Source of the DNA: Myxococcota bacterium | Lineage (GTDB): Bacteria > Myxococcota_A > Bradymonadia > UBA7976 > UBA1532 | Reading direction: 5' to 3' | Assembly (NCBI GenBank): GCA_963169045.1 | Contig: CAUJDF010000058.1 | Location: 1 to 64,000 of the forward strand | DNA length: 64,000 nucleotides | Shown here: one piece after another, positions 37,150 through 43,749 of the stretch | Layout: each line of letters begins with the position of its first letter | Numbering within the stretch: the stretch's first letter is position 1 | Program-made: the position numbers and the translations under genes | The notes under the pieces: model-generated | Seen by the model: only the letters and a program-made list of their open reading frames with translations | Databases searched by the model: none | Told to the model about the DNA's origin: nothing

Positions 37150-37178
37150 TTGCGCCGGTGCCCGACGGGCCGTACGAT
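37150..37178 (+). promoter_or_regulatory. Predicted promoter of the Hsp70/J/uppS/cdsA/rseP/tsaB operon
   Basis: TTGCGC (37150-37155), 17 bases, TACGAT (37173-37178). It looks like a housekeeping site rather than a heat-shock sigma-32 promoter. The Hsp70 start codon is ~36 bases downstream. Confidence 0.5.
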
Positions 37179-37214
37179 GGCGCGGTTCTCGTCCGTTCCC
37201 CGAGGGACCCCCAC

Positions 37215-38801
37215 TTGACCGCGCGCGAGTACGTCATCGGCATCGATCTCGGGACGACCAACTCCTGCGCGGCGGTCGTCATCGACGGGGAGGTGCACGT
37301 CATCCCCGACGAGCGCGGGCTGCGCACGCAGGCGTCGATGGTCGCCTTCCTCGAGGACGGGTCGGTGGTGGTGGGCAACGAGGCGCGCCGCGAGGCGGTG
37401 CTCGACCCGCCCAACGTCGTCTATTCGGCGAAGCGCCTCATCGGGCGGCACTTCCACTCGAAAGAGGTGAAGACCGCGCTGCAGCACTTCCCGTTCAAGG
37501 TGGTGCGCGGCAAGAACAACGTGCCCCTGCTCGAGGTGCGCGGCGAGCGCTACGGCCTGCCCGAGATCTCGGGCATGGTGCTGCGGCGCATGAAGGACAT
37601 CGCCGAGCGCTACCTCGGCGCGCCGGTGACGAAGGCCGTCGTCACCGTCCCGGCGAACTTCAACGACACGCAGCGGCAGATGACGAAGCTCGCGGGCACG
37701 CTCGCCGGCCTCGAGGTGCTGCGCATCGTCAACGAGCCGACGGCGGCGGCGCTCGCCTACGGTTACGGGCGCGGCATGAACGCGCGCCTCGCGGTCTACG
37801 ACTTCGGCGGCGGTACGTTCGACATCACGCTGCTCGACCTGCGCGACCACGTGTTCGAGGTGCTCTCGACCGCCGGAGACACCTACCTCGGCGGCGACGA
37901 CTTCGACAACCGGCTCGCCCGCTTCATGACCGTCGCCTTCCGGCAGATGCACGGCTTCTCGATCGAGAACGATCCGGTGGCGCAGGCGCGCCTGAAGCAC
38001 GTCGCCGAGAAGCTCAAGATGGAGCTCTCCGAGAAGGAGCGCGCCATCGTCAACGTGCACGAGCTGGCGCTCGACCCCGAGGGCAAGCCGCTCGACCTGC
38101 GCTTCCAGACGGACCGCGCCGGCTTCAACGAGCGCTGCCAGGACATCATCCAGCGCACGTTCCTCGTGTGCGACGAGGCGCTGTCCGTCGCCGACATCAA
38201 GGCCGCCGAGGTGGACGGCGTGGTGCTCGTCGGCGGCACGACGCGCATCCCGCTCGTGCGGCAGATGGTCGGCGAGTACTTCCAGCAGCAGCCGCTCACC
38301 GACATCAATCCCGAAGAGGTCGTCGCCGTCGGCGCCGCCATCCAGGGGGCGGCCCTCGAGAGCGAGCATTTCGGCGTCAATGGCGGCCAGACGGCGCGCA
38401 CGCCGCTGCTCCTCGACGTGACGCCCATGTCGCTCGGCGTGCAGACCGTCAGCGGCTACTTCGACGTGGTGATCGCGCGCAACGCCTCGATCCCCTGCGA
38501 GCAGTCGCGCACGTTCACCACGACCGTCGACGGGCAGACCTCGGTGCGGCTGCAGATCTTCCAGGGCGAGAGCCGCATCGCCGCCGAGAACATCAAGCTC
38601 GGCGAGGTCGAGCTCTACGGCCTGCGGCCTTCGCCGCGCGGGCAGGTCGAGATCGACGTCACGTTCGAGATCGACACCGACGGCATGGTGATCGTGCGCG
38701 CGCGCGACCGCGACACCGGCATCGAGCAGGCGACGCGCGTCGAGGTCTCGGCGGGCTATACCCACGAAGAGATTCAGGAAATGCTGGATCGGGGGCTCTA
38801 G
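37215..38801 (+). CDS. Hsp70/DnaK-like chaperone lacking the alpha-helical lid, 528 aa
   Basis: TTG start at 37215 behind AGGG. The ATPase domain is complete: IGIDLGTTNSCAAV, NEPTAAALAYGYG, YDFGGGTFDITLLD, VDGVVLVGGTTRIPLV. The linker LLLDVTPMSLG starts near residue 399, and the substrate-binding beta-sandwich follows (NASIPCEQSRTFTTTVDGQ, VRLQIFQGE). The protein stops at SAGYTHEEIQEMLDRGL, which aligns with the first helix after the beta-domain; E. coli DnaK (638 aa) continues ~120 residues with the helical lid. So ATP binding and a peptide cleft are present, but no lid. It heads the operon and is three bases before the pseudo-receiver/J-domain gene, its probable co-chaperone. Confidence 0.9.
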   Translation: MTAREYVIGIDLGTTNSCAAVVIDGEVHVIPDERGLRTQASMVAFLEDGSVVVGNEARREAVLDPPNVVYSAKRLIGRHFHSKEVKTALQHFPFKVVRGKNNVPLLEVRGERYGLPEISGMVLRRMKDIAERYLGAPVTKAVVTVPANFNDTQRQMTKLAGTLAGLEVLRIVNEPTAAALAYGYGRGMNARLAVYDFGGGTFDITLLDLRDHVFEVLSTAGDTYLGGDDFDNRLARFMTVAFRQMHGFSIENDPVAQARLKHVAEKLKMELSEKERAIVNVHELALDPEGKPLDLRFQTDRAGFNERCQDIIQRTFLVCDEALSVADIKAAEVDGVVLVGGTTRIPLVRQMVGEYFQQQPLTDINPEEVVAVGAAIQGAALESEHFGVNGGQTARTPLLLDVTPMSLGVQTVSGYFDVVIARNASIPCEQSRTFTTTVDGQTSVRLQIFQGESRIAAENIKLGEVELYGLRPSPRGQVEIDVTFEIDTDGMVIVRARDRDTGIEQATRVEVSAGYTHEEIQEMLDRGL

Positions 38802-38804
38802 CCG

Positions 38805-39839
38805 ATGGAGCCGAAGCAGCCGACGCGTCCCGTCCCGGCCCTCGGCAGGCTCGCGCTCAAGCGCGTGGCCGTCGCGGCGCCCCAGGCGGCGCAGCCGGCG
38901 GTCGTCGTGCGCCGGGCGCTCGTCGGCGAGGGCGACGAGGGGGTGCGCAACGCGGTGATCGCGCACCTGCCGCGCGAGCGGTTCCAGGTGTGGGCCTACC
39001 CCGACGGCGACTCGGCGTACGACCACGTGCAGGCCCACGGCGCCGACGTCGTGATCCTCGGCCGCGAGATGCCGGGCCTCGCCGGGAGCGTGCTCTGCGA
39101 GCTCATCCGCAAGGGCAAGTTCGGCGGCACGGTGGCCATCCTGCTGATGAGCCCGCGTTACCGTGACCACCACCTCGGCGCCCGCGACTGCAGCGCGTTC
39201 GGCGCCGACGAGTTCATCCCGCTGCCGACGTCGCCGAACGACTTCCTCGACCGCGTCGATGCCGCCATCTCGCGACGCGAGCCGATCGCCCGGCTCGAGG
39301 TGCTGCCGGCGCCGCTCGCCAGGCAGATCGACGACCTGTGGGACGCGCTCGACCGCCTCAGCTACTACGAGCTGCTCGGCGTGGCGCCCGACGCGGACCG
39401 CAACGCCCTGCAGGCGGCCTTCCACGAGAAGTCGCTGCGGCTGCACCCCGACCGCCACGCGAAGCTGCGCGGCGCGCACCCGCACGCGTGGGAGAAGATC
39501 AACACCATCTTCAAGCGCGTCACCGAGGCCTACAAGGCGCTGGCCCATCCGGCGAACCGGCGCAGCTACAACGTCGGCCTGCGCAAGCGCGGCGCGCTGC
39601 GGCTCGAGCCCGACGAGGTGCGGCGCCGCGAGATGCGCGAGCTCGAGCTCGCCACGACGAACGAGGGCCGACAGTTCGTGCTGCAGATGATGGAGTGCCG
39701 CAGCATCGGCGACCTCGAGGGCGCCGGCGAGGCGCTCGGGCAGGCGCTCCGCTTCGAGCCCGAGAACCAGCCGCTGCGCGACATGCGCGACGCCATCGAG
39801 AAGCTGCTGCACATCGTCCGCACCCAGTCGGTTCCCTGA
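38805..39839 (+). CDS. Pseudo-receiver plus J-domain fusion protein, 344 aa
   Basis: Residues ~35-155 form a CheY-like fold, but the phosphate site is degraded: the acceptor Asp is Gly 86 (VVILGREMPG), the conserved Lys is Leu 140 (FIPLPTSP), and the paired acids are partly replaced (ALVGEGDEG). The Ser of the Thr/Ser site is kept (LLMSP). Residues ~184-255 form a J-domain (YYELLGVAPDAD...LHPDRH, H214-P215-D216) that should stimulate Hsp70 ATPase. The last ~75 residues are a helical, TPR-like tail. It is cytoplasmic. The upstream gene is its likely Hsp70 partner. Whether the pseudo-receiver binds a different signal is unknown. Confidence 0.85.
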   Translation: MEPKQPTRPVPALGRLALKRVAVAAPQAAQPAVVVRRALVGEGDEGVRNAVIAHLPRERFQVWAYPDGDSAYDHVQAHGADVVILGREMPGLAGSVLCELIRKGKFGGTVAILLMSPRYRDHHLGARDCSAFGADEFIPLPTSPNDFLDRVDAAISRREPIARLEVLPAPLARQIDDLWDALDRLSYYELLGVAPDADRNALQAAFHEKSLRLHPDRHAKLRGAHPHAWEKINTIFKRVTEAYKALAHPANRRSYNVGLRKRGALRLEPDEVRRREMRELELATTNEGRQFVLQMMECRSIGDLEGAGEALGQALRFEPENQPLRDMRDAIEKLLHIVRTQSVP

Positions 39840-39842
39840 GAG

Positions 39843-40580
39843 ATGAACCTGCCGAGACACATCGCGATCATCATGGACGGCAACGGCCGCTGGGCCTGCA
39901 ACCAGGGCCTGCCGCGCGTCGAGGGCCACCGCGCCGGCGCCAAGGCGGTGCATCGCACGGTGCGCGCCTGCCGCGAGATCGGCATCGAGGCGCTCACCCT
40001 CTATGCCTTCAGCGAGCAGAACTGGGCGCGCCCCGAGCCCGAGGTGGAGGCGCTCATGCACCTGCTCCTCGAGTACGTGCGCACCGAGCGCCAGGAGATC
40101 CTCGGCAACGACATCCGCCTGACGGCCATCGGCGACCTCGAGCGGCTGCCGCCGTTCGTGCGCGAGCCGCTGTTCGCGCTGATGGAGGAGAGCGCCAGCA
40201 ACCAGGGCATGGTGCTGACGCTGGCGCTGAGCTACGGCGGGCGCGAGGAGATCCTGCGCGCCGCCAGAGCGCTCGCGCGGGAGGCCGCCGCCGGCCGCCT
40301 CGACCCCGCCGACATCGACGAGGCGGCGTTCGCCGCCGGGCTCGACACCGCGGGGCTGCCCGATCCGGACCTGCTCATCCGCACGAGCGGCGAGCTGCGC
40401 GTGAGCAACTTCCTGCTCTGGCAGATCGCCTACGCCGAGCTCTGGTTCACCGAGGACACCTGGCCCGAATTCGACCGCGCCCACCTCGACCTCGCGATCG
40501 AGTGCTATCGGCAGCGGCAGCGGCGGTTCGGGCGCACCGGCGAGCAGGTGCTCGCCGCCGTGGGGGCGACGGGGTGCTGA
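39843..40580 (+). CDS. uppS: Isoprenyl transferase (undecaprenyl diphosphate synthase), 245 aa
   Basis: cis-Prenyltransferase that adds isopentenyl units to make the C55 lipid carrier for peptidoglycan and O-antigen. Motifs: IAIIMDGNGRWA (Mg Asp 12), GHRAGAKAV, LYAFSEQNWARP, ALSYGGREEI, DLLIRTSGELRVSNFLLWQ and the C-terminal LWFTEDTWPEF. Length is typical. It lies three bases after the pseudo-receiver/J-domain stop and overlaps the cdsA start by seven bases. Confidence 0.96.
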   Translation: MNLPRHIAIIMDGNGRWACNQGLPRVEGHRAGAKAVHRTVRACREIGIEALTLYAFSEQNWARPEPEVEALMHLLLEYVRTERQEILGNDIRLTAIGDLERLPPFVREPLFALMEESASNQGMVLTLALSYGGREEILRAARALAREAAAGRLDPADIDEAAFAAGLDTAGLPDPDLLIRTSGELRVSNFLLWQIAYAELWFTEDTWPEFDRAHLDLAIECYRQRQRRFGRTGEQVLAAVGATGC

Positions 40581-41386
40581 CGCGCATCATCTCCGGCATC
40601 GTGATGGCCGCGGCCATCATCGCCGTGCTCATCTACACGCCGTGGTGGACGCTGGGCCTCGTGGTCCTCGTCTTCGCCTTCCTGTCGGCCCACGAGTTCC
40701 AGCGCATCACGCGCCCCGACGCCGGCGGCGTCGACCGCGGCGTGTTCATGCTCGCCGTGCTCGTCGCCATCGTCTGGCCGGTCCTGCGCAAGGTGCTGCC
40801 GTTCTGGGGACCCGAGGTCGGCCTGATGGTCGGCTTCTTCATCCTGGCGCTGGCGCGACTGTTCCGCCCCGACCCCATCGAGACCAGCATCGCCCGCCTG
40901 GGGACCGACGCGCTCGGCCTGATGTACATCGGCGTGACCTTCCCGCTGATCTTTCTTCTGCGCGACCGGGAGCACGGCGGCTGGGTCGTCTTGTTGGTGA
41001 TGGCGATCACCTTCGGGGCCGATACCGGGGCGTACTTCGCCGGGCGGTTCCTGGGGCGGCACAAGATGTACGAGAAGATCAGCCCCAAGAAGACGTGGGA
41101 GGGCCTCGTCGGCGGCCTCCTCGTCGGCGTGGGCGCGGTCTTCATCGCACGTCAGTGGTTCCCCGGGCTCGGCTGGCTCACCCCGGCGCACTGCGTGGCG
41201 CTCGGCCTCCTCGCCGCCTCGTTCGGGGCGATGGGCGACCTCGTGGAGTCGATGCTGAAGCGCGCATACGGCGTGAAGGACTCCGGTACGCTCATCCCCG
41301 GCCACGGCGGCGCCCTCGACCGCATCGACGCGCTGCTCTTCGCAGGGCCCGTCGCCTGGCTGTACCTGGAGTGGGCCACCCGATGA
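40574..41386 (+). CDS. cdsA: Phosphatidate cytidylyltransferase CdsA, 270 aa
   Basis: Makes CDP-diacylglycerol from phosphatidate and CTP, feeding pssA and cardiolipin synthesis. GTG start at 40574 overlaps uppS. About eight hydrophobic helices. The family signature is complete near the C terminus: SMLKRAYGVKDSGTLIPGHGG followed by LDRIDALLF. The stop overlaps the rseP start (ATGA). uppS-cdsA-rseP order is widely conserved in bacteria. Confidence 0.95.
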   Translation: MLTRIISGIVMAAAIIAVLIYTPWWTLGLVVLVFAFLSAHEFQRITRPDAGGVDRGVFMLAVLVAIVWPVLRKVLPFWGPEVGLMVGFFILALARLFRPDPIETSIARLGTDALGLMYIGVTFPLIFLLRDREHGGWVVLLVMAITFGADTGAYFAGRFLGRHKMYEKISPKKTWEGLVGGLLVGVGAVFIARQWFPGLGWLTPAHCVALGLLAASFGAMGDLVESMLKRAYGVKDSGTLIPGHGGALDRIDALLFAGPVAWLYLEWATR

Positions 41387-43062
41387 ACGCCCTTCTCAAC
41401 ATCGCCGCCTTCGTCGTGCTCCTCGGCGTGCTCGTCACGGTGCACGAGCTCGGCCACTTCGTCGTGGCCAAGCTGAGCAAGGTGAAGGTGCACGTGTTCT
41501 CGATCGGCTTCGGCAAGCCGCTCCTGAAGACGCGCATCGGCGAGACCGAGTACCGCATCGCGATGCTGCCGCTCGGCGGTTACGTGCGCATGGCCGGCGC
41601 CGATCCGACCGAATCGGCGGACCCCGCCGAGATGCGCGGCAGCTTCCTGCAGAAGCCGCCGTGGGTCCGCATCCTCATCGCGATGGCGGGCCCGGCGATG
41701 AACCTGCTGCTGCCGTTCGCGATCCTGGTGCCGTACTTCGTGATGGCCGGCAGCCACGACGAGGTGACCGGCAACTCGATCGGCGCCGTCGACAGCGGCC
41801 TGCCCGCCTACAAAGCCGGCCTGCGCCCCGGCGACCGCATCGTCGCCGTCGACGGCGCGCCGGTCTCGACGTTCTGGGAGATCAGCGAGCGCATCGAGTC
41901 GTACCGCCAGAGCCAGGGGCCGCTGAAGCTCACCGTCGAGCGGCCGGGCGAGGCGGCGCCCCTGACGATCGAGGTCCAGCCGGAGGGCGTCGAGCAGACG
42001 CACCCCATCCTCGGCTACAAGTCGACGGACTACCGTGTCGGGTACATGCCCGACGCGCGCGCCGCCGACGTGGCGCTGGTCGCGCCCGACGCGCCGCTCG
42101 GCGCCGCCGGCGTGAAGACCTTCGACCGCGTGCTGGCGATCGACGGCGAGGCGGTGGCGGGCTACGACGCGCTCGAGCGCGCGCTCGCCGCGCTGCCCGC
42201 CGGCAAGACGGTCACGCTGAAGGTGGAGCGGGACACGCCCATCCCCGACACGTACACCTTCCTGCAGAAGCGCGAGACGCTCGAGCTGCCGTTCACCGCG
42301 CCCGCCACTGGCGCGGCCGCGGGCCTGACGCACGCCGGTCCCTGCATCGCCTCGCTGGCGGCCGACGGGCCGGCGGCGAAGGCCGGCCTGCAGCTCGGCG
42401 ACTGCATCCTCGCCGTCGACGGCGAGCCGCACTCGCTCGCCGCGTTCGTGGCCCAGCGGATCGCCAACGCCCCGGAGGTGCCCAAGTCCCTCGAGGTGCT
42501 GCGGGACGGGCAAAAGCTCACCGTCTCGCTGCAGCTCGAGCGCATCGTGTTCGACGACGCGCTCGCCGGCGAGATCCAGCAGTGGCGCACCGGCCTGAAG
42601 CTGCTCAACCGCCCGGATCCGTTCGTGCCGCAGCCGCTCGTGGCCAACGACAACCGCATGGCCTACGCCTGGACGCGCACCGTCGACCACGTCGGCGACA
42701 AGCTGCAGGAGCTCGTCTACATGGTCGGCGGCCTGTTCACCGGCCGCGTCAGCCCGACGCAGCTCGGCGGTCCGCTCACCATCTACACGCTCGCCGGCAT
42801 GCAGGTGCAGCAGGGCGCCGACAGCTTCATCGCGCTGATGGTGATGCTGTCGCTGTCGCTCGCCATCCTGAACCTGCTGCCCGTGCCCGGCCTCGACGGC
42901 GGCCAGGTGCTCGTCGCCGCCATCGAGATGGTCATCCGCCGGCCGCTGCCCGAGAAGGTGCAGGCGGGCCTCTTCCGCATCGGCGCGGTCATGATCCTCG
43001 CCCTCATCCTGTTCGCCCTCGGCAACGACCTCGTGCGCCAGTGGCGGCTCCACTACGGCTGA
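41383..43062 (+). CDS. rseP: RseP-type site-2 protease with three PDZ-like modules, 559 aa
   Basis: Intramembrane zinc metalloprotease; cleaves membrane-bound anti-sigma factors after a site-1 protease cut. ATG start at 41383, overlapping cdsA. The zinc motif is H21-E-L-G-H25 in the first helix, and the third ligand is Asp 505 in NLLPVPGLDGGQ. Between are three PDZ-like modules, at ~130-205 (GLRPGDRIVAVDGAPV), ~228-305 (FDRVLAIDGEAV; the glycine after FD is missing) and ~320-395 (GLQLGDCILAVDGEPHS). E. coli RseP (450 aa) has two. Two C-terminal helices follow the Asp motif. Confidence 0.93.
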   Translation: MNALLNIAAFVVLLGVLVTVHELGHFVVAKLSKVKVHVFSIGFGKPLLKTRIGETEYRIAMLPLGGYVRMAGADPTESADPAEMRGSFLQKPPWVRILIAMAGPAMNLLLPFAILVPYFVMAGSHDEVTGNSIGAVDSGLPAYKAGLRPGDRIVAVDGAPVSTFWEISERIESYRQSQGPLKLTVERPGEAAPLTIEVQPEGVEQTHPILGYKSTDYRVGYMPDARAADVALVAPDAPLGAAGVKTFDRVLAIDGEAVAGYDALERALAALPAGKTVTLKVERDTPIPDTYTFLQKRETLELPFTAPATGAAAGLTHAGPCIASLAADGPAAKAGLQLGDCILAVDGEPHSLAAFVAQRIANAPEVPKSLEVLRDGQKLTVSLQLERIVFDDALAGEIQQWRTGLKLLNRPDPFVPQPLVANDNRMAYAWTRTVDHVGDKLQELVYMVGGLFTGRVSPTQLGGPLTIYTLAGMQVQQGADSFIALMVMLSLSLAILNLLPVPGLDGGQVLVAAIEMVIRRPLPEKVQAGLFRIGAVMILALILFALGNDLVRQWRLHYG

Positions 43063-43068
43063 ACCTCC

Positions 43069-43749
43069 GTGCTCCCGGCGCCCCTGCTCCTCGCGATCGA
43101 TTGCGCCACCCCCTACGAGTCGGTGGCGCTGGTGCGCGACGGCGACGTCGTGGCCGAGCATGGCGCGGTGCGGCGCCACGGCGCCGGGCCGACGCTGCTC
43201 GACGTGGTGCAGGCGCTGCTCGAGGACGCCGGCGTCGGGCTGTCCGACGTGCGCGGGCTGGTGTGCGGGCTCGGGCCGGGCAGCTTCACCGGGCTGCGCG
43301 TGGCGCTCGCGACGCTCAAGGGGCTGGCGCTCGCGCGCGACCTGCCGCTGTGGGGCGTGCCCACCGCGGTGGCGCTCCAGGCGGCGCTGCCGCACGAGCG
43401 GGTGGTGGCCGTGATCGACGCGAAGCGCGGCGAGGTGTTCGTCGAGGGCCGGTGCGTGCCGCCCTCGGCGGTCGGTGACCTCGGCGAGGCGACGCTGCTC
43501 GGGAGCGGGGCGCTGCTGTACCGCGCGACGCTGCTCGCCGGATCGCCGCGGGCGCGTGTCCCCGAGGCGCCGGCCCTGCACCACCCGCGGGCAGCGCTGT
43601 TGACGACCCGCCTGGGCGACCCCCCGCCACTGGCGACCCTCGAGCCGATCTACGTCCGCAAGTCCGACGCCGAGATCAACTACCCCGACGGCTTCCCGGA
43701 CGCGACCGCCGTGCCCGCCCAGAAGCTTCCGCCGAAACACCGACGCTGA
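43069..43749 (+). CDS. tsaB: tRNA t6A biosynthesis protein TsaB, 226 aa
   Basis: ASKHA-fold partner of TsaD, TsaE and TsaC for N6-threonylcarbamoyl-adenosine at position 37 of ANN-decoding tRNAs. GTG start at 43069, six bases after the rseP stop. Signature: LLAIDCATPYESVAL at the N terminus, and LVCGLGPGSFTGLRVALATLKGLALA around residue 65. It shows the usual short C-terminal domain and length. Last gene of the operon. The downstream 358 bp has a repeated CCGGCGCAGGCA (43751 and 43808). Confidence 0.92.
   Translation: MLPAPLLLAIDCATPYESVALVRDGDVVAEHGAVRRHGAGPTLLDVVQALLEDAGVGLSDVRGLVCGLGPGSFTGLRVALATLKGLALARDLPLWGVPTAVALQAALPHERVVAVIDAKRGEVFVEGRCVPPSAVGDLGEATLLGSGALLYRATLLAGSPRARVPEAPALHHPRAALLTTRLGDPPPLATLEPIYVRKSDAEINYPDGFPDATAVPAQKLPPKHRR

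Follow-up and report, generated by a model that had tools for sequence, protein, structure and literature searches.

The locus analysed here raises the question of why two chaperone-like genes, encoding an Hsp70 that lacks the lid and a fusion of a pseudo-receiver with a J domain, stand directly ahead of the envelope genes uppS, cdsA and rseP. The locus lies in a stretch of 64,000 nucleotides (positions 1 to 64,000 of contig CAUJDF010000058.1, assembly GCA_963169045.1), hereafter the window, from the 9.0-Mb draft genome of a Myxococcota bacterium of the class Bradymonadia, placed in an order other than Bradymonadales. There is good support both for the pair and for its position in the operon. 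Judged from sequence, the pair is real and old and is apparently co-transcribed with the lipid genes in this organism, and it is rather probable that the two genes encode a dedicated, growth-coupled Hsp70/J-domain pair, made from the same transcript as uppS, cdsA, rseP and tsaB. The operon spans 37158-43749 and consists of six genes on the + strand, separated in order from hsp70 to tsaB by gaps of 3, 3, -7, -4 and +6 bases.

37215-38801, + strand: lid-less Hsp70, 528 residues from TTG 37215, in a reading frame open from GTG 37158
38805-39839, + strand: pseudo-receiver, J-domain and C-terminal helical (TPR-like) fusion, named RRJ here, 344 residues, PF00226 and PF00072
39843-40580, + strand: uppS, undecaprenyl diphosphate synthase, PF01255, with NF011405 and TIGR00055 above cut-off
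40574-41386, + strand: cdsA, phosphatidate cytidylyltransferase, PF01148
41383-43062, + strand: rseP, site-2 protease with PDZ domains, PF02163, with TIGR00054 above cut-off
43069-43749, + strand: tsaB, tRNA t6A factor, TIGR03725 above cut-off

An earlier sequence-only reading of this DNA had given the same six genes with these gaps and, apart from the Hsp70 start discussed below, these coordinates, and its assignment of a lid-less Hsp70, a receiver-J fusion, uppS, cdsA, rseP and tsaB was borne out by Pfam and TIGRFAM matches and by an AlphaFold2 model. No terminator-like site was found between the six genes, including the interval between the fusion gene and uppS, where a transcription end had been named as the observation that would speak against a shared operon; the only two matches both lie inside cdsA, with 1.5 expected. 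The proposal of one transcription unit is supported by gene spacing and by a promoter-like footprint; the scanner gave no consensus promoter for it. The further suggestion that the chaperones drive the operon finds no support as far as regulation of the operon by them is concerned.

The first protein retains the ATPase machinery of the Hsp70 superfamily, with ATP-binding and catalytic residues and the linker intact. It shares 46% of its residues with E. coli DnaK (233 identities over 508 aligned positions), all 16 checked catalytic positions are kept, the LLLD of the interdomain linker is retained (PLLLD in the window protein), and residues R167, N170, P172 and T173 of DnaK, which we take to belong to the J-domain site, are conserved. 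What is missing is the lid. The PF00012 match reaches only profile position 511 of 599, the protein ends 13 residues past the beta domain, and the AlphaFold2 model (mean pLDDT 89) comprises the ATPase domain, the beta domain and one final 11-residue helix. As compared to these 13 residues, the tail after the beta domain measures 98-142 residues in 29 DnaK-like paralogues and 131, 112 and 82 residues in E. coli DnaK, HscA and HscC, respectively. In what is presumably the peptide arch, M404 of DnaK is replaced by Val and A429 by Thr, and several pocket residues are kept. The protein scores below the DnaK cut-offs (TIGR02350, 581.4 against 822.55 bits; NF001413, 603.9 against 648 bits), in part because the missing lid itself lowers the score, and below the HscA cut-off (TIGR01991, 504.2 against 708.55 bits). 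With such scores and no lid, a plain DnaK or HscA identity was rejected, as was truncation by a sequencing error or frameshift, since relatives in the window's family and its sister family end alike, with tails of 13-28 residues.

The second protein, RRJ, is divided into three parts, and its structure model has a mean pLDDT of 91.

38907-39275, + strand: receiver domain, PF00072 and receiver fold, with the phospho-acceptor Asp replaced by Gly and the conserved Lys by Leu
39360-39572, + strand: J domain, PF00226, with HPD at residues 214-216
39660-39827, + strand: C-terminal helical hairpin, TPR-like by eye, with model helices at residues 286-300, 304-317 and 322-341

The receiver is recognised by PF00072 above cut-off and by Foldseek, with TM scores of 0.76-0.89 to single receiver domains (normalised by target), and both of its phosphorylation residues are replaced in the window protein. 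Counted across 41 RRJs of the class against one genuine receiver as reference, and with the contig-cut G052 scored as a gap, the Lys is lacking in 40 and present in at most one. The phospho-Asp is present in six of them, or in nine if three sequences of the sister family are shifted by one column (absent from 32-35); of the two other receiver acids, 30 proteins retain the second and none the first. Such losses make a phospho-signalling receiver unlikely. FrzS of Myxococcus xanthus is likewise a pseudo-receiver, a receiver fold without phosphorylation residues that serves in docking, which differs in having a coiled coil and no J domain. RRJ matches PF00226 above cut-off, carries HPD and matches no other DnaJ domain, as is typical of class C J-domain proteins. 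HPD is kept in 38 of 42 class RRJs, and H214, P215 and D216 are invariant in the 34-row alignment A1, which excludes four sequences of family f3 that lack the motif. The C-terminal hairpin is conserved in stand-alone J proteins of about 170 residues, one of which is a sub-threshold TPR match. A membrane anchor in RRJ was rejected by hydropathy, as no membrane segment was found and the highest 19-residue value is 1.25, against 2.41 in CdsA and 2.43 in RseP. In a PDB sequence search each of the best-matching stretches listed for RRJ spans one domain only, and its search of named genomes gave one J-domain match, in an alphaproteobacterium.

A promoter-like footprint is located ahead of the pair.

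37150-37178, + strand: TTGCGC (37150-37155), 17 bp, TACGAT (37173-37178)

The pattern TTGC..-N17-TA...T recurs in 8 of 11 aligned upstream regions of the window's family, whose spacer sequences are unlike one another. In 500 shuffles it occurred in 0.016 regions on average and in one at most, values that are post hoc, since the pattern was read off the same alignment. In the three remaining regions, a thioredoxin-like gene lies 17 bp upstream in G007 (this gene, like typA, frr, yebC, ruvC, his, aroA and dxr in relatives, was named by eye from the start of its protein), the spacer in G010 is 16 bp long, and G003 shows no such pattern. A consensus sigma-70 promoter ahead of hsp70 was dropped, since the scanner found 0 with 0.3 expected, and the conserved footprint was used instead; the housekeeping-like promoter proposed earlier survives as a recurrent pattern and not as a consensus match. 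The footprint overlaps the upstream GTG 37158, and the match in most relatives begins near residue 18-26 of the longer Hsp70 reading frame. For these two reasons the start is more likely TTG 37215 than GTG 37158, with the caution that matches of G012, G003 and G008 begin further upstream, at residues 2, 13 and 14 of the longer frame, which speaks against the TTG.

Conservation was surveyed in 57 genomes of the class, using alignment A1 for RRJ and the window protein for cdsA. The search of relatives for the same gene order, suggested by the sequence-only reading, revealed Hsp70-RRJ in 11 of 13 genomes of the window's family (f1). In all 10 of these whose contig continues past RRJ the pair heads the operon, and the other two genomes of the family (G001, G004) have uppS-cdsA-rseP-tsaB without the chaperone pair. 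All six genes are present on five f1 contigs (the window, L055, L058, L060 and L061); contigs L056, L057 and L062 end in rseP and that of G005 ends inside RRJ, and G003 and G010 have no uppS between RRJ and cdsA. In the sister family (f2) the pair heads the operon in three of three genomes. Across the class, RRJ was found in 42 of 57 genomes, in 41 with E values of 8.6e-38 or better and in G016 at 2.8e-28, where it is placed between an Hsp70 and cdsA. In 36 of these 42 genomes (10 in f1, 3 in f2, 4 in f3 and 19 in f6, the Bradymonadales) its gene precedes cdsA by no more than 1 kb in the same orientation, with nothing between them in 25 and uppS between them in 11, and a chance adjacency of RRJ and cdsA is rejected by this count. 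The placement is cut by contig ends, and so undecidable, in two (G005, G027). In the 23 RRJ-bearing genomes of f1, f2, f3 and f7 an Hsp70 gene directly precedes RRJ without exception, counting G048 and G030, where only the end of that gene is on the contig.

The association is not universal. In four f7 genomes Hsp70-RRJ is located away from cdsA, next to a typA-like gene in the three where the contig shows it, and cdsA-rseP-tsaB runs without the pair. Counting these four, such a block without the pair was seen in 13 of the class genomes inspected (the others being six of f4, G019, G001 and G004). RRJ is absent by count in 15 of 57 genomes (G001, G004, G019, G021, G039, G043, G055 and eight of f4), and as no cdsA match was obtained in G039, G043 and G037 either, gaps in the sequence may explain why it is lacking from these three. 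In G021 a member of the Myxococcota Hsp70 group described below stands directly before cdsA, with no RRJ. A conserved place of the chaperone genes, as the earlier proposal requires, is supported by the 36 RRJs beside cdsA; the four f7 pairs and the group Hsp70s of f6 are found elsewhere.

In the phylum as a whole, 302 genomes were compared with A1 and at most seven candidates were scored per genome, so that the tallies are lower bounds. Matches at 1e-40 or better were obtained in at least 112 of the 302, at least 39 in the class and at least 73 outside it; the outside count is low, because G285 and G259 carry Hsp70-RRJ away from cdsA and are not among the matches listed. Among the matches listed outside the class, only those of G063 (model positions 6-302) and G058 (48-301) reach clearly into the receiver; the next, G133, starts at model position 70, and the rest correspond to the J and C-terminal parts. 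In G058 and G063 (family f9) the pair follows an frr-like gene, and frr precedes uppS in G057 and G070. Elsewhere in the phylum an Hsp70 and a J protein of about 170 residues adjoin yebC-ruvC, his, aroA-like and other genes.

A FastTree of 119 Hsp70s, calculated without E. coli sequences, placed the window protein in a Myxococcota group of 66 with support 1.0, and in an IQ-TREE of the ATPase domain the Bradymonadia plus G146 received UFBoot 96. Hsp70 gene calls shorter than 480 residues were left out of the trees, and the contig-cut fragment L098 of 446 residues was kept. The tail after the beta domain is at most 33 residues long in 51 of the 66, which leaves no room for a lid (two of these tails read 0, one of them, L098, at a contig end), and 48 of the 64 members that can be judged are directly followed by a J gene in the same orientation. 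The relocated Hsp70s of f6 (L209, L235-L242) have a conserved YDxxxLLM-like tail where the lid would be, and three Hsp70s of f7 (L069, L090, L092) end in [GN]DxPDxLP; both kinds of end could be a docking motif for TPR-type partners.

Short tails also occur outside this group, in 515-520-residue Hsp70s of f6, G016 and G048 and in L215, L231 and L232. The Bradymonadales loci L144:2885-6796, L145, L146, L147 and L150 carry a separate lid-less Hsp70 (515-517 residues) after proteins of 555-792 residues. These show J matches in five of five, all below the Pfam cut-off, TPR matches in five of five, two of them over cut-off, DUF4388 in three and a receiver match below cut-off in two. Downstream of the lid-less Hsp70 in G020 (L144:6958-8607), a receiver is fused to a Glu/Leu/Phe/Val dehydrogenase with both dehydrogenase domains over cut-off. 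L215, L231 and L232 form a third set, with a tail of 21 residues, adjoining J proteins of 366-434 residues. The window's own genome contains a second lid-less Hsp70 (L074:5953-11557, G000:C44), placed after lpxB, a VTT-domain gene, a family-2 glycosyltransferase gene and another gene, and followed by a stand-alone receiver that by eye keeps the phospho-Asp. Its counterparts in G002 and G009 (L224 and L225) are accompanied in G009 by lpxB and a glycosyltransferase gene and in G002, in the stretch examined, by a glycosyltransferase gene.

No published account of this Hsp70/RRJ pair or operon was found among the matches listed for the open-licence papers searched, counting the top rows of the longest listings, and the nearest known systems differ from it in defined ways. 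M. xanthus has 15 Hsp70s, of which MXAN_2747 has a much shorter SBD-alpha according to the cited passage (PMC8265645), a likeness to the window protein. The pairs MXAN_2747/MXAN_2745 and MXAN_3016/MXAN_3015 resemble ours as a non-DnaK Hsp70 with a J protein at a neighbouring locus number; however, pairing is deduced from these numbers only, and the passages cited mention no receiver domain or uppS-cdsA link. PilZ proteins with DnaK or DnaJ domains are mentioned for M. xanthus in an excerpt of another paper (PMC8316039). A 2021 review distinguishes, in the part cited, three bacterial types, DnaK, HscA and HscC, with HscC thought to act at the plasma membrane and DjlB/C tail-anchored (PMC8215388), unlike RRJ, which has no membrane segment. 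HscC with DjlB/DjlC and HscA with HscB are alike in that an Hsp70 has its own J partner encoded nearby, but they keep the longer tails given above and the trees place the window Hsp70 apart from both; HscC is the most distant from it of the three E. coli Hsp70s, but was also the outgroup. DnaK is like it in overall identity, ATPase residues, linker and several pocket residues, and DnaK/DnaJ differ from the pair in the lid, in the DnaK cut-offs and in the DnaJ domains other than J, which RRJ lacks. The operon frr-uppS-cdsA-dxr-rseP-tsaB of G057 (L262) has the same order of uppS, cdsA, rseP and tsaB; in the window the chaperone pair stands at the head, without dxr and frr.

In the mechanism that we favour, the pair and uppS, cdsA, rseP and tsaB would be transcribed together from the conserved housekeeping-type promoter, and chaperone dose would follow envelope growth via the shared operon. 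The J domain of RRJ would, as is ordinarily expected, trigger ATP hydrolysis by the lid-less Hsp70, and the pseudo-receiver, presumably not phosphorylated in the usual way, may provide a docking module by which the client or the place is selected, with the C-terminal helical hairpin helping to hold a client or partner. An Hsp70 without lid would grip clients only briefly and would thereby be better suited to the rapid remodelling of proteins that are folded or membrane-bound than to the holding of long unfolded chains. An inner-membrane or envelope client would be plausible. Gene distribution, considered without a species tree, suggests that an old Myxococcota pair may have entered the cdsA-rseP operon in an ancestor shared by most Bradymonadia.

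Several observations weigh against a dedicated pair of this kind. RRJ stays before cdsA-rseP-tsaB in f6 without any Hsp70 before it in 18 of 18 judgeable genomes (19 have RRJ; G052 is cut, and the upstream sequence of G032 and G046 extends for only about 430-540 bases), and nine f6 genomes, eight with RRJ plus G039, carry their group Hsp70 elsewhere (L209, L235-L242). Four f3 RRJs lack HPD (L196:1985-2893, L244, L245, L246) with the lid-less Hsp70 still adjoining. In the window Hsp70 itself, E206, D208, K214, D326, S330, S332, K414, R447 and D477 of DnaK, which we assume to be J-interface and allosteric residues, are altered. Within the group of 66, 15 tails measure 63-247 residues and are acidic and disordered, as judged by eye only, and no J gene follows 16 of 64 members (the nine f6 loci, four of the L074 kind, L193, L219 and L257). 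The evidence for the group is mixed, as it recurs and its limit is without firm support: after addition of E. coli DnaK, HscA and HscC the same 66 are recovered at 0.425 with full-length sequences and at 0.969 with the ATPase domain, and IQ-TREE with 48 ATPase-domain sequences gave UFBoot 69. Finally, MXAN_2745 and MXAN_3015, two J proteins of M. xanthus, were recovered with the general DnaK1 by co-precipitation, in the portion of the report cited (PMC11019930), and because these J proteins are encoded at locus numbers beside Hsp70 genes, the word dedicated may be too strict.

The alternatives are not mutually exclusive with a dedicated pair, and their probabilities overlap, because such a pair could be envelope-specific or merely positioned there. 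The one that survives best, and which is quite possible while falling short of the favoured reading, holds that a chaperone pair of general function happens to sit in a housekeeping operon with good expression and stays there by inertia, with no functional tie to lipid synthesis. Neighbours of the pair vary among classes and many look like growth genes by eye, and cdsA-rseP-tsaB is itself an old conserved block that can carry a head gene along; yet the arrangement persists in four families whose genes beyond the operon are different, and RRJ remained in f6 where the Hsp70 did not. Less likely is the proposal closest to the sequence-only reading, namely that the two chaperones are devoted to this operon and that, at the inner membrane, they hold, fold or monitor CdsA, UppS or a substrate of RseP. 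It draws on the presence of RRJ with cdsA in four families, even where no uppS separates the two (two f1 genomes, f3 and f6), on the frr-like neighbour in f9, and on the lpxB locus, where another lid-less Hsp70 of this genome follows lpxB and glycosyltransferase genes and is itself followed by a receiver gene. Against it, the related pair elsewhere in the phylum mostly adjoins yebC-ruvC, his and unrelated genes, in f7 it is found apart from cdsA, and cdsA-rseP-tsaB runs without it in 13 of the class genomes inspected. A lipid-specific role is not accepted, mainly because of these varied neighbours, and an envelope tie is kept in play because of the RRJ-cdsA link in four families together with the lpxB locus. 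Weakest is the idea that RRJ is mainly an adaptor or regulator of envelope enzymes that recruits any Hsp70, including DnaK, with the lid-less neighbour optional, which fits the Bradymonadales arrangement and DnaK1 binding by the M. xanthus J proteins, and which we regard as improbable given that the Hsp70 adjoins RRJ in all 23 RRJ-bearing genomes of f1, f2, f3 and f7.

Returning to the dedicated pair, a lid-less Hsp70 with a dead-receiver J protein (in f6, the J protein alone) at the head of a membrane-lipid operon in many members of the class suggests an undescribed chaperone pair. It is doubtful that it amounts to a further type of bacterial Hsp70 machine, in which a lid-less Hsp70 is addressed by a pseudo-receiver J protein and envelope synthesis or RseP signalling comes under chaperone control in Bradymonadia. 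If this were true, lid-less Hsp70s with receiver- or J-bearing neighbours would be a general design, given their recurrence at the lpxB locus and in a separate Hsp70 branch. The widespread Myxococcota group, in which 51 of 66 members leave no room for a lid and most lie beside their own J gene, offers a natural way to examine the purpose of the lid and, through its tie to envelope-lipid genes in one class, to examine whether membrane synthesis and a chaperone pair can be linked.

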